Below are positions 17,833 to 32,643 of a DNA stretch of 33,138 nucleotides, one piece after another. Position 1 is the stretch's first letter, and every line of letters begins with the position of its first letter. Position numbers and translations under genes: made by a program. Source of the DNA: a bacterium. Its GTDB lineage: Bacteria; Patescibacteriota; Minisyncoccia; Minisyncoccales; GWA2-46-15. The stretch spans positions 1-33,138 of the forward strand of contig JAUYCZ010000011.1 in assembly GCA_030704795.1 (NCBI GenBank). Direction: 5' to 3'. The notes below the pieces were generated by a model. It had not been told where the DNA came from. It did no database searches and worked only from the letters and a program-made list of their open reading frames with translations.

Positions 17833-18777
17833 CTAAACGATCCTGTTCCGAGGGTTGCCCTTGGCCGCAGCGATGATGTTGTCGGTAAAAATCTGATAGA
17901 GATTAACTAACGTTTCTCTTGTATGCCAACCAAAGGGCTTCAATCCGATACTATTATCCAAAGCCGTTAGTGAGCTCTCCTCGAAATTCTTCGATTCCCA
18001 AGCATAAGCGCCAACCTGGCCAGATTTTAAGGCTTCGACCATAGCTGATTCCTCAACTAGATCGGGATCAACTAGGTTAACAAATAATACCCCTGGTTTC
18101 ATCTTGGCTGTCTGATCCTTATTAATCAAATTGCGGTTGCTATCTTCATGGTTCGCATGCAAAGAGATCGCATCCGATTCTCGTAAAACCTCTTCGAACG
18201 TCTTCATCTCAACGCCTGATTGCTGTTTTGGCTTTCGATCGCAGGCAATCACTTTCATGCCAATGCCTAATGCCATTTCGGCCACCCGGCTGCCGATATT
18301 TCCCAGTCCGATGATTCCCAGGGTCTTCCCTTTTAACTCTGAGCTCGTTTCTAGCTTATATTGACCTCTTTGAGTTTGGCGGTCATAAAAGATGATTTTC
18401 TTGGCCAGGCAAAGAAGCAAGGCCAAGGCGTGCTCGGCCACCGCCTCTCTTGAATAACCCGGAATATTACTGACCGGCAGATTCCTGCTCTTACAATAGT
18501 CCAGGTCAATCCAACCAAAAGAGGTGGTGGAAAGACAGATACCTTTTAGTTTAGGCAAAGACTCAATCAACTTCATCAATGGCGGCCGGGATTTGGCAAA
18601 ACCACCGAAAACATCAGGATCGGGCGCGATGATTTCTGCACCCGCGGCCAGGGCCAAAAGTTTATCTAGGGGCATTTCTTCACGACTGGGCGTATAAACA
18701 ACTTCGCCGAGCTTGACTAATTCAGCCTGCTGACTCGGCGTAAACTCTGTTTTGGGAAGGAAAACAGCGATTTTCAT
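17833..18777 (-). CDS. D-2-hydroxyacid dehydrogenase homologue, atypical active site
   Basis: The protein has 314 residues with the family fold: substrate domain (about 1-95 and the C-terminus), then VSNIPGYSREAVAEHALALLL, and the NAD-binding Rossmann motif GLGNIG (157-162) with Asp at about residue 180 (IACDR), which suggests NAD rather than NADP. The catalytic residues are not standard. The strand normally reading N-T-x-R-G is NLVDPDL (234-240), so the substrate-binding Arg is absent; the segment normally reading P-H-I-G-W is PFGWHT (281-286), so the general-acid His is replaced by Phe with a His shifted three positions on. Activity may be altered or lost. Substrate unknown. Confidence 0.85.
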   Translation of the reverse strand: MKIAVFLPKTEFTPSQQAELVKLGEVVYTPSREEMPLDKLLALAAGAEIIAPDPDVFGGFAKSRPPLMKLIESLPKLKGICLSTTSFGWIDLDYCKSRNLPVSNIPGYSREAVAEHALALLLCLAKKIIFYDRQTQRGQYKLETSSELKGKTLGIIGLGNIGSRVAEMALGIGMKVIACDRKPKQQSGVEMKTFEEVLRESDAISLHANHEDSNRNLINKDQTAKMKPGVLFVNLVDPDLVEESAMVEALKSGQVGAYAWESKNFEESSLTALDNSIGLKPFGWHTRETLVNLYQIFTDNIIAAAKGNPRNRIV

Positions 18778-18786
18778 AGCTTGTGG

Positions 18787-19485
18787 TTAATTTTTAATTT
18801 TAGTTTGTTGAGCCAAGCCGTTAATCCACCCTTGAATTTTGAAAGCGTTCATCCTATCACAAACATTTATTTGTATAGTTCCGAACGGTAAGAAATTCTT
18901 TGGTCGTTTTCCATTCCCCGCCTTGCTAATAGCAAAATAGACATGAAATCTTTCTGGAGAAATAAAAAGAATTCGTGACCAAAACTTTACAGCATCTTTT
19001 GCTTCGATGTTGCCAAATATCTGCACCCTCGGCCTAATTTTCTTTTCCGGGATTTTCAGAATCTCTCGCAAAAAACGGAGAAACAGAACGACCATATTGG
19101 GGTCGGAGTTAGCAAAACTTATTGTTGGAGAACGTTTTTGAATTTCAATCCTATATCCTTCTCCCCAATACAGCGCGGTACCAATAAGCATTAATTCTCG
19201 TTCTGATAATTGACCGATATCTTTTAGAGACTTTTCTTTAATGTTTTTGTTCTCTGATTTAATCAATAAAGTTCTTCGCCGATTAAAGTCCATCAGCTGT
19301 TTTCGAGTCGTTCTCCCTTTTTCCTCCAATAGTTTTCTTGCTTTCAATGGTAAAACAAGATTTTTAAACCAACCACTAAGAGTGCTCTTAGGGACGCCCA
19401 GGGCCTTTTTAATCTCTCCCTCGCTGTTGCCTTTAAGTCTCAGCTCTAAGGCGCGCTGATATCTTGGTATGGAAGAAGTGCGCAT
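18787..19485 (-). CDS. HTH plus LAGLIDADG-like protein next to tRNA-Glu
   Basis: The protein has 232 residues. The N-terminal helix-turn-helix reads RALELRLKGNSEGEIKKALG followed by VPKSTLSGWFKNL, then a basic linker and a domain with LMLIGTALYWGEGYR and SFANSDPNMVVLFLRFLREIL. The G-x3-Y/W-G-E-G helix resembles a LAGLIDADG-type motif of homing endonucleases; that is an inference. The ATG (19485) is one base from the tRNA-Glu discriminator (19487), so RNase Z cleavage of a joint transcript would release a nearly leaderless mRNA. No Shine-Dalgarno fits except inside the tRNA. A truncated homologue with the same order follows tRNA-Ile at 32679. It could be a mobile or tRNA-targeting element or a DNA-binding regulator. 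Confidence 0.8.
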   Translation of the reverse strand: MRTSSIPRYQRALELRLKGNSEGEIKKALGVPKSTLSGWFKNLVLPLKARKLLEEKGRTTRKQLMDFNRRRTLLIKSENKNIKEKSLKDIGQLSERELMLIGTALYWGEGYRIEIQKRSPTISFANSDPNMVVLFLRFLREILKIPEKKIRPRVQIFGNIEAKDAVKFWSRILFISPERFHVYFAISKAGNGKRPKNFLPFGTIQINVCDRMNAFKIQGWINGLAQQTKIKN

Positions 19486-19486
19486 A

Positions 19487-19558
19487 TGGCGCTAACGGGA
19501 GTCGAACCCGTGTCGCGGCCTTGAAAGGGCCGTGTCCTAACCACTAGACGATAGCGCC
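19487..19558 (-). tRNA. tRNA-Glu(UUC)
   Basis: Acceptor GGCGCTA with 3' arm TAGCGCC and discriminator A, no encoded CCA. D-arm GTCT/GGAC, anticodon stem CGGCC/GGCCG with loop CTTTCAA (TTC), T-loop TTCGACT. The HTH gene start codon begins two positions after its last base. Confidence 0.95.
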
Positions 19559-19569
19559 AAATCAAGTTG

Positions 19570-19598
19570 ATTTTAACCTAGAAATTGAAAAAAATCAA
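19570..19598 (-). promoter_or_regulatory. tRNA-Glu promoter
   Basis: TTGATT (19593-19598), 17 bases and TAAAAT (19570-19575) on the minus strand. The predicted start is about five bases before the tRNA. It overlaps the divergent valS promoter. Confidence 0.6.
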
Positions 19599-19613
19599 TC
19601 GGTGAGATATAAT
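19585..19613 (+). promoter_or_regulatory. valS promoter
   Basis: TTGAAA (19585-19590), 17 bases, TATAAT (19608-19613). The predicted start near 19620 leaves only about six bases before the ATG. An AGGG at 19614-19617 would lie upstream of that start and so might not be in the mRNA. Confidence 0.7.
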
Positions 19614-19625
19614 AGGGAATTGACC

Positions 19626-21677
19626 ATGGAACTGCCTAAAGCCTACGATCACAATCAAGTCGAAGACAAAATCTCCCGCCTCTGGGAAAAGGGCGGTTTT
19701 TTCAAGGGCCGGATCACCCGCGGCCAAAAGCCTTTTATCATTACTCTGCCGCCGCCCAATGTCACGGGCAATTTGCACGCCGGCCATGCCATGTATGTTA
19801 TTGAAGACATTATCATCCGTCAGCAAAGAATGGCCGGTAAACCCAGTCTCTGGCTGCCCGGCTTTGATCACGCTTCCATTGCCGTGGAATACCTGGTCTC
19901 AAAACAGATAAAAAAAGAGGGCAAAAGAAAGCGAGAAGTGGGCCGAAAAGAGTTTTTAAAAAGAGCCAAGGTTTTTGCGGCCAACTCTAGAAAAAACATC
20001 AAGCGCCAACTGCGAAAATTAGGTTTTTCTTTGGATTGGAGCCGGGAAGCCTATACCATGGATAAAGTTAGATCTGAGGCGGTCAAGGCGGCTTTTAATA
20101 ACCTTTATAAAAAAGGTTTAATCTACCAGGGAGAATATATTGTTAACTGGTGCCCGGCCTGCCGAACAGCCATCTCCGATCTGGAGAACGAATACGAAGA
20201 GGAAGAGGGAAAACTCTATTATATGAAATACGGACCTTTTGTCTTGGCGACGACTCGCCCAGAAACTAAATTCGGCGACACGGCCGTGGCCGTCCACCCG
20301 CAGGATGAACGTTACCAGTCATGGATTGGAAAAGAATTTGTCTACGAATCACTAATCGGTCCTAAGAAAATGAGAGTCGTCGCCGATGAAGCCGTTGACC
20401 GGGAATTCGGCACCGGCGTGCTTAAAGTAACGCCGGGGCACGACCAGACGGACTTCGAAATCGGCCAAAGGCATAACCTGCCGACGATAAAAGTCATCGA
20501 CGAAAACGGCCGCCTGACCTCGGTGGCCGGCAAATTTGCCGGGCTCAAAATTCTGGAAGCGAGAAACTTAGTCGTAGAAGAATTAAGGACCCGGGGGGAC
20601 CTCATCAAAACCGAAACTATCACTCATTCGGTCGGCCATTGCCAAAGGTGTCATGCAACGACCGAACCGTTGATTTCCAAACAATGGTTTGTAAAAACCC
20701 AGCCCTTGGCTAAAAAGGCGATTGAAGCGGTCAAGTCGGGGAAAATTAAAATTATCCCTAAATATTTCGAAAAAACATATTTCCACTGGCTAAAAAACAT
20801 CAAAGACTGGTGTATTTCCCGACAACTTTGGTGGGGCCACAAGATTCCTTTAAAAGGAGTTGATGACACTCTGGACACCTGGTTTTCTTCCAGCCTTTGG
20901 CCGATTTCGGTTTTTGGCTGGCCTAAAAATACGAACGACCTTAAATACTTTTATCCGACCGATATCAGAGAAACGGGCTATGACATTCTTTTTTTCTGGG
21001 TCATCAGAGAAATTATGATGTGTCTGGAAATGACCGGAAAAGTTCCCTTCAAAACCGTTTATCTTCATGGGCTCGTCAGAGATCAGCAGGGACGAAAGTT
21101 TAGTAAGACGGCGGGCATTGGCTTTGATCCTTTAGATATGACGGCAAAATACGGCACGGACGCTTTAAGAATTTCTCTAGTTTACGGCAATGCGGCCGGA
21201 GCCGATTTAAAAATCGGCGAAGATAAAATCAAAGCGATGAGAAATTTTACCAACAAGATATGGAATGCGGCCAGGTTTATCCTGGCCACGCCGAACAACG
21301 CAGAACCAAACGCTGAACAACGCGGAAGTATCAGCGCAAATCAGCGTTTAAATCAGCGCAAATCAGCGGGTTCAAACGATAAATGGATTCTTAAAGAATT
21401 GGATAAAACCATTAAAGAAACCAATAATCTGTTTGAAAAGCATGGTTACGGTCAGGCGGCAGAGTTGCTTTACCAGTTTTTCTGGAAAAAATTCTGCGAC
21501 AAATACATCGAGTCAACCAAAGACCGAAGAAAACAGGCTCAGCCAATTCTGCTTTATGTCTTGGCCACTTCATTAAAACTATTGCATCCTTTTATGCCTT
21601 TTATTACTGAAGAAATCTACCAAAAACTACCATTAAAGAATAAAAAGAAGAGCTTAAGTATTGAGAGTTGGCCATGA
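19626..21677 (+). CDS. valS: Valyl-tRNA synthetase, compact form
   Basis: This enzyme charges tRNA-Val. The protein has 683 residues from ATG 19626; the track begins at an upstream GTG that overlaps the -10 box. Class I motifs: HAGHAM (51-56, the HIGH motif) and KFSKT (491-495, the KMSKS motif). The editing domain is present (LATTRPETKFGDTAVAVHPQDE), as are zinc-type Cys in WCPACRTA and CQRCH. Compared with typical ValRS (880-950 residues) two regions are short: WWGHKIPLKGVDDTLDTWFSSSLWP lacks the usual insert after the WWGH segment, and the protein ends after the anticodon domain without the C-terminal coiled-coil arm. Residues about 557-582 are encoded by a TCAGCG repeat array. The stop overlaps the next gene (ATGA). 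Confidence 0.95.
   Translation: MELPKAYDHNQVEDKISRLWEKGGFFKGRITRGQKPFIITLPPPNVTGNLHAGHAMYVIEDIIIRQQRMAGKPSLWLPGFDHASIAVEYLVSKQIKKEGKRKREVGRKEFLKRAKVFAANSRKNIKRQLRKLGFSLDWSREAYTMDKVRSEAVKAAFNNLYKKGLIYQGEYIVNWCPACRTAISDLENEYEEEEGKLYYMKYGPFVLATTRPETKFGDTAVAVHPQDERYQSWIGKEFVYESLIGPKKMRVVADEAVDREFGTGVLKVTPGHDQTDFEIGQRHNLPTIKVIDENGRLTSVAGKFAGLKILEARNLVVEELRTRGDLIKTETITHSVGHCQRCHATTEPLISKQWFVKTQPLAKKAIEAVKSGKIKIIPKYFEKTYFHWLKNIKDWCISRQLWWGHKIPLKGVDDTLDTWFSSSLWPISVFGWPKNTNDLKYFYPTDIRETGYDILFFWVIREIMMCLEMTGKVPFKTVYLHGLVRDQQGRKFSKTAGIGFDPLDMTAKYGTDALRISLVYGNAAGADLKIGEDKIKAMRNFTNKIWNAARFILATPNNAEPNAEQRGSISANQRLNQRKSAGSNDKWILKELDKTIKETNNLFEKHGYGQAAELLYQFFWKKFCDKYIESTKDRRKQAQPILLYVLATSLKLLHPFMPFITEEIYQKLPLKNKKKSLSIESWP
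21298..21370 (+). repeat. TCAGCG-type microrepeat array inside valS
   Basis: The segment contains ACGCTGAACAACGCGGAAGT followed by ATCAGCG units spaced about 10-11 bases apart (four copies). It is translated in frame as NAEPNAEQRGSISANQRLNQ... between the catalytic and anticodon domains. It matches intergenic arrays at 8206-8305 and 25925-25965. Confidence 0.7.
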
Positions 21678-32547: not shown

Positions 32548-32619
32548 GGGCGCGTAGCTCAATGGCGGAGCAAGGTCCTTATAAGGCCGAGGTTCCTGGT
32601 TCGAATCCAGGCGCGCCCA
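32548..32619 (+). tRNA. tRNA-Ile(UAU)
   Basis: Acceptor GGGCGCG/CGCGCCC with discriminator A, no encoded CCA. D-arm GCTC/GAGC, anticodon loop CTTATAA with U33 and A37 giving anticodon TAT, T-arm CCTGG-TTCGAAT-CCAGG. The first anticodon-stem pair is an A-G mismatch. The loop equals that of the usual CAU-type tRNA-Ile2 except for position 34. It reads AUA without needing lysidine. It lies 3 bases after ftsH and may be cut from its mRNA. Confidence 0.9.
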
Positions 32620-32643
32620 CGAAAATCTAAAGCGGGCTTGCTC

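Follow-up and report, generated by a model that had tools for sequence, protein, structure and literature searches.

An HTH and LAGLIDADG-like gene abutting tRNA-Glu belongs to a family of tRNA-associated, probably mobile genes in CPR-like bacteria and Actinomycetes

The window analyzed here, a stretch of 33,138 nucleotides forming contig JAUYCZ010000011.1 of assembly GCA_030704795.1, carries on its minus strand a tRNA-Glu(UUC) gene (19487 to 19558, anticodon TTC in the gene) and, immediately behind it, a gene encoding a 232-amino-acid helix-turn-helix (HTH) and LAGLIDADG-like protein (18787 to 19485, minus strand). The acceptor stem of the tRNA is formed by 7 bp between 19558-19552 and 19494-19488, with A19487 as the discriminator, and a single spacer base, T19486, lies between this and the ATG at 19485; discriminator and ATG are exactly where the original prediction had placed them. 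Its further claim that no ribosome binding site exists except within the tRNA also held, as the 18 nt in front of the ATG are tRNA sequence devoid of a Shine-Dalgarno motif and none was present outside the tRNA. Neither a separate promoter nor a later start was seen for this gene. The closest promoter upstream of tRNA-Glu is the sigma70-like sequence TTGATT-17-TAAAAT (19570 to 19598, minus strand), presumed to drive both the tRNA and the gene; since it lies on the same strand, a joint transcript is plausible. The tRNA is intron-free, and no other Glu(ttc) tRNA was found in the genome of 637 kb, whose second tRNA-Glu is of the ctc type. The slot is bounded on the left by a valine tRNA ligase-like gene (valS; 19602 to 21677, plus strand), kept across the genus, and on the right by a 2-hydroxyacid dehydrogenase-like gene (17833 to 18777, minus strand).

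Two further copies of the gene are present in the same genome. One starts downstream of tRNA-Ile(UAU) (32548 to 32620, plus strand) and is cut off by the contig end (32679 to 33138, plus strand). It has a TATAAT box 6 nt 5' of its ATG and, judging from the gene order in two relatives (G003 and G023), is expected to run into tRNA-Val(gac). The third copy lies on contig C6, between tRNA-Phe and tRNA-Gly; both were located by searching the genome with the protein. The window gene is a member of a clade linked to tRNA-Glu(ttc), in which six genomes have distances of 0, 1, 1, 1, 2, and 2 nt between tRNA and start codon, and two others have 6 and 14 nt. One additional member starts 41 nt past the tRNA and has its own TATAAT box, and one disrupted copy starts about 45 nt past it. 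Because near-zero distances recur in this clade, the start in the window is not an artifact of open reading frame calling.

The encoded protein combines an N-terminal HTH (residues ~8 to 39; 19369 to 19464, minus strand), for which most members have Pfam HTH matches, with a C-terminal LAGLIDADG-like domain (residues 92 to 232; 18790 to 19212, minus strand) marked by a conserved NSDP, W169, and G202. Profile alignment placed the LAGLIDADG-like helix, GTALYWGEG, at residues 95 to 110 (19156 to 19203, minus strand). Both the HTH and this helix ending in GEG agree with the original prediction. An AlphaFold2 model based on a 23-row alignment (pLDDT 89) comprises a three-helix HTH (helices 3-17, 22-29, and 33-39) followed by a long helix and a C-terminal domain of alpha/beta type, with an order of helices and strands compatible with a LAGLIDADG fold. 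Among PDB sequences, the profile of the C-terminal domain (124 sequences) matched only I-DmoI (E=0.003), pairing LYW-EG-K with the segment LYVAEGDK in motif 2 of I-DmoI, which includes E117 and K120. E109 of the window protein (codon 19161-19159) aligns with E117, a catalytic residue of I-DmoI. Position 109 is acidic throughout (E in 123 of the 124 aligned rows, D in the remaining one), and position 112 is K in 109 of the 124 rows and R in the window copy. In hhalign comparisons with PF14528 domains from CPR genomes, the profile scored 24.1 in register, versus at most 12.8 for 60 column-shuffled controls and 10.7 for the reversed one. The family resembles I-DmoI and single-motif LAGLIDADG endonucleases in having motif helix, catalytic acid, and following lysine in register, and the order of sheet and helices is compatible with that of I-DmoI. 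It differs from I-DmoI in its N-terminal HTH and its location outside introns and inteins; the similarity is weak by sequence and comes with no confident fold match. The proposed LAGLIDADG-likeness stands as a distant relationship, whereas the structure search did not bear out the fold: Foldseek, run with two models against PDB and BFVD, returned no significant match, so that we regard a LAGLIDADG fold as probable but not proven.

No Pfam LAGLIDADG or NCBIfam homing model matched the window protein or appeared among the family matches listed, and PADLOC defense families gave no match to the window protein. Sequence searches of Pfam, NCBIfam, PHROGs, and PDB yielded no entry naming the whole protein, single members matching HTH families only. 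The family has no name, and no description of it was found in our search of open-access journal articles in full text. It comprises presumed DNA-binding and probably DNA-cutting proteins. dN/dS values of ~0.05 to 0.13 between near relatives point to strong purifying selection. One copy (L130:4001-4654) has its catalytic EG replaced (LYWAGCGK) and no tRNA within 200 nt, and is possibly decaying. A small open reading frame (L240; G070:C5:355-570) shows the reverse order, with an HTH-like segment at the C-terminal side of a LAGLIDADG_3-type domain.

Among 60 relatives, 30 have family members, up to four per genome and some with in-frame stops. The CPR-like class to which the organism belongs consists of tiny, uncultured bacteria, and 123 of its 238 genomes contain members, with up to nine copies each. 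Homologs also occur in Chloroflexi (1 positive among the 151 genomes of the group searched) and in Actinomycetes, where about 14 of 150 genomes gave full-length or nearly full-length matches. Further homologs reside on phage contigs of IMG/VR, many of them 150 to 527 kb in size and thus from huge phages, and none was detected in a phage GenBank collection.

Scanning the retrieved loci with a profile, and calling tRNAs both with introns allowed and without, provided 147 usable members; tRNAs and start codons in the counts given below are predictions. A tRNA lies within 200 nt of 141 of the 147 genes. A same-strand tRNA starts between -30 and +20 nt of the stop codon in 92/147 family genes versus 11/281 neighboring open reading frames (Fisher p ~1e-41), and this control is conservative because its reading frames were drawn from regions chosen for holding a family gene. 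Association with tRNA genes is therefore far above chance. In the main layout, represented by 111 cases, the gene is situated directly 5' of a same-strand tRNA; in 95 of these the stop codon and the first base of the tRNA are no more than 15 nt apart, and in 55 the stop codon is within the tRNA, with 28 stops at offset -9, where they coincide with T8-A9-G10, and 15 at offset -14. In the tRNA-Glu(ttc) clade this layout is mirrored, most members starting 0 to 14 nt past the tRNA. All 13 newly found actinobacterial members adjoin a gene for tRNA-Lys, Gln, Asn, or Met; in 12 cases the family gene is directly upstream and on the same strand.

Most loci that at first seemed free of tRNAs hold an intron-bearing or truncated tRNA. 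Intron-bearing tRNAs of the Asn, His, Thr, Phe, and Met types, with introns of roughly 130 to 280 nt, adjoin family genes at L018, L022, L049, L097, L100, L106, and L114, and Rfam identified group I introns at L049, L114, L097, and L100. Tandem pairs of family genes were noted beside tRNA-Lys in a CPR-like genome (L133:3998-5298, minus strand) and beside tRNA-Met in Chloroflexi (L041:3422-4758, plus strand).

Each branch of the family is tied to one tRNA, which gives it the look of a selfish gene copying into tRNA genes. A tree of 144 proteins required 38 switches in tRNA identity for 138 labeled members and 26 states, compared to 95 to ~106 on label-shuffled trees, and within-clade purity was complete for Gln(ttg) (15/15), Ile(tat) (15/15), Ala(ggc) (9/9), and Val(gac) (6/6). 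Family distances track those of rpoB in part (Mantel r of 0.56 for the Gln clade and 0.54 for the Ile clade), which indicates that much of the descent is vertical and inheritance mixed. Hence, the clades are tRNA specific, spread over many hosts, and partly vertically inherited.

Comparison of syntenic sites revealed occupied and empty versions. The valS/tRNA-Glu/dehydrogenase site is without a family gene in four congeners (G001, G002, G003, and G005), so the pair is not universal and the gene comes and goes at this tRNA, as a synteny check proposed with the original prediction was meant to find out. In G005, tRNA-Glu directly adjoins the dehydrogenase gene, with 25 nt between them; the slot is filled by a GIY-YIG gene in G002 and by a GNAT gene in G001. 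Similarly, the dnaX/tRNA-Gln site is empty in G000, G003, and G010, with 7 to 34 nt between the genes, and is occupied in G002 and G004 by a family gene plus promoter placed exactly in between, an insert of ~760 bp consisting of one gene and its promoter. At both sites, the family genes are intergenic and outside any intron or intein. In G001, G005, and G008, the dnaX/tRNA-Gln slot contains a GIY-YIG nuclease gene preceded on its 5' side by a tRNA-Gln piece of 13 to 15 nt; because tRNA-Gln pieces precede these three genes, invasion of tRNA genes seems not to be restricted to one nuclease family. In total, solo GIY-YIG genes (Pfam PF01541), the three at tRNA-Gln among them, were observed in tRNA-flanking slots of relatives at L305:1560-1874(-), L305:1094-1537(-), L303:1124-1390(+), L299:1167-1493(+), and L149:1749-1985(+). 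Past tRNA-Glu in G002, a direct repeat, TTTCGCTAAAGCTTCAGGTGGCC, occurs twice (L149:1575-1645), and in G001 a piece resembling the tRNA-Glu 3' end lies ~65 to 85 nt past the intact tRNA (L171:1640-1660), possibly a scar of a lost insertion.

Truncated tRNA copies were detected at some of the occupied sites. At L062, an intact tRNA-Glu is followed by the gene and then by a tRNA-Glu 3' end, and at L093, a member of the tRNA-Glu clade with no intact tRNA beside it, a tRNA-Glu 3' piece lies 10 nt past the stop codon. In the upstream layout, pieces comprising tRNA-Gly 1-26 (L019), tRNA-Val 1-33 (L032), and tRNA-Lys ~1-32 (L051) precede genes that are followed by the respective intact tRNA; L051 is the weaker case because its piece also resembles a tRNA-Arg. 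We take such a far-side copy as the probable footprint of an insertion into the tRNA. Clear footprints were present at only ~5 to 7 of the 147 loci, and a tRNA 5' fragment as a general feature 5' of upstream-type genes was rejected, since it occurs at few loci. A search for a perfect target palindrome identified none. The notion that tRNA genes are targets of integrating elements is thus upheld by footprints and empty sites as far as entry into tRNA genes is concerned, but no integrase is involved.

Most family members are located upstream of a tRNA, have their own promoter, and read into the tRNA 5' end; the promoter often includes a TATAAT placed 6 nt from the ATG, a leaderless arrangement as well. 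With tRNAs removed, 61 of 136 upstream regions contain GGTTC/GAACC, versus 8.9 expected from shuffling (maximum 15 in 100 shuffles), and in several clades an inverted repeat of these motifs at about -45 and -8 encloses a TATAAT box. The idea that the operator matches the T-stem of the adjacent tRNA itself was rejected, as only the universal GGTTC is common to both. Between the -10 box and the start codon, a spacing of 6 nt is the most frequent (16 genes), which fits the expectation for leaderless mRNAs, and Shine-Dalgarno-like sequences precede only 17 of the 147 genes. In the 3' ends of upstream-type genes, no clear hidden tRNA promoter was found. For the tRNA-Glu clade, in most of which the layout is kept, near-leaderless expression following an RNase Z cut is plausible; this route, put forward for the window gene, does not extend to the rest of the family, most of whose members have their own promoters. 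The leaderless idea as such fits the family more widely, since two routes could lead to it, a promoter abutting the start codon and, in the tRNA-Glu clade, tRNA 3' processing. In upstream-type transcripts, RNase P cutting is predicted to remove the stop codon in half of the cases.

Considering these data, we find it likely that the family represents a free-standing single-gene mobile element whose homing-endonuclease-like protein targets a specific tRNA gene. The protein, presumed to act as a homodimer because it has one LAGLIDADG-like motif, would cut within the tRNA sequence of a target gene copy that has not yet been invaded. Repair from a donor carrying gene and tRNA would then use the rest of the tRNA as a homology arm on one side and a nonhomologous or flank join on the other. 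After repair, the gene would be flanked by an intact tRNA and, across from it, by a truncated piece that later decays. Such one-sided repair would give the footprint pattern described above. Expression would depend on a promoter that the gene's own product represses through the inverted GTTC repeats flanking the -10 box; members of the tRNA-Glu clade would instead rely on the promoter of the tRNA, with RNase Z releasing an almost leaderless mRNA. Counting against this interpretation are the partly vertical descent, the small number of loci with clear footprints, the R at position 112 of the window protein, the negative palindrome search, and the negative Pfam LAGLIDADG and Foldseek results.

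An alternative is that the protein is a domesticated, tRNA-linked regulator controlling its own operon and the linked tRNA to the benefit of the host. WhiA, a conserved single bacterial regulator, provides a model, in that a LAGLIDADG-derived domain is combined with an HTH in a bacterial protein. Strong purifying selection, partly vertical descent, operator-like inverted repeats, and the co-directionality of most members with the tRNA, which makes cotranscription probable, would all suit such a role. However, whereas WhiA is conserved, single, and equipped with a C-terminal HTH, the family is patchy, multicopy, and tRNA bound; half of the relatives lack the gene, among them congeners having the same tRNA, the clades are specific to ~20 different tRNAs, truncated tRNA footprints exist, and the acidic catalytic position, dispensable for a pure regulator, is kept in every aligned row. 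We therefore judge the regulator role unlikely.

Distinctly less probable is a role in trans as nuclease or maturase for an adjoining tRNA group I intron lacking its own reading frame: several members do flank intron-bearing tRNAs, with Rfam group I introns at four loci, but nearly all other adjoining tRNAs, including tRNA-Glu in the window, are intron-free. tRNA genes are the usual attachment sites of integrase-type elements, and this, together with the incomplete tRNA copies beyond the gene, could suggest a fragment or cargo of a larger element of that type. The insert is confined to one gene and its promoter, though, the protein resembles no integrase, and isotype-specific clades are unexpected of passive cargo, which makes this origin slightly more improbable still. 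Finally, an ordinary host gene could come to lie beside a tRNA by chance in a small, compact genome; given the 92/147 versus 11/281 in controls and the same arrangement in actinobacterial genomes of several megabases, we attach almost no weight to this explanation.

A homing-endonuclease-like element of this kind has parallels among known nucleases. LAGLIDADG proteins in CPR rRNA introns, e.g., I-ShaI, form site-specific clades of mixed vertical and horizontal descent (PMC11270868), and the family shares with them the hosts, the single motif, the site-specific clades, and the mixed descent. They differ in being located inside rRNA introns and in belonging to LAGLIDADG_1 to 3, and tRNA is not mentioned in the main text of that study (PMC11270868). 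The T-even phage protein SegB, a GIY-YIG nuclease, is free-standing and encoded in a tRNA region; its homologs cluster with phage tRNAs without isotype preference, and microhomology between segB and the tRNA-Tyr 5' end was reported (PMC2988022, PMC13096335). As with SegB, whose target is the tRNA region, and other Seg/Mob proteins, a free-standing nuclease or nuclease-like gene lies among tRNA genes. In contrast to the phage-borne GIY-YIG protein SegB, the family has an HTH and a LAGLIDADG-like domain, resides mainly on bacterial chromosomes, and is fused to the tRNA end in an isotype-specific manner by clade. I-TevI represses its own promoter by operator binding (PMC2988022), and an operator in the own promoter is likewise predicted for the family, from inverted GTTC repeats alone; what operator and target have in common here is no more than the GGTTC found in the T-arm of the tRNA.

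It is tempting to speculate that the tRNA serves this selfish gene as target, homology arm, and expression switch at once, with homing gated by tRNA processing across phyla, although we consider this broader proposal doubtful at present. In the tRNA-Glu type, RNase Z maturation of the tRNA would create the leaderless mRNA. In the upstream type, removal of the stop codon by RNase P would render tRNA maturation and nuclease synthesis mutually exclusive, and the nuclease would thereby be kept low.

If our main interpretation is correct, these genes would constitute an extensive class of single-gene elements, as yet without a name, that specialize on individual tRNA genes of bacterial chromosomes and are carried by roughly half of the genomes sampled from one CPR-like class as well as by Actinobacteria and phages. 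Their activity would help to account for the variability of the slots flanking tRNAs in streamlined genomes, and the family would offer new site-specific DNA-binding or DNA-cutting proteins with ~20 different natural tRNA targets. Gating of selfish-gene expression by tRNA processing, through RNase P or RNase Z, would become testable.
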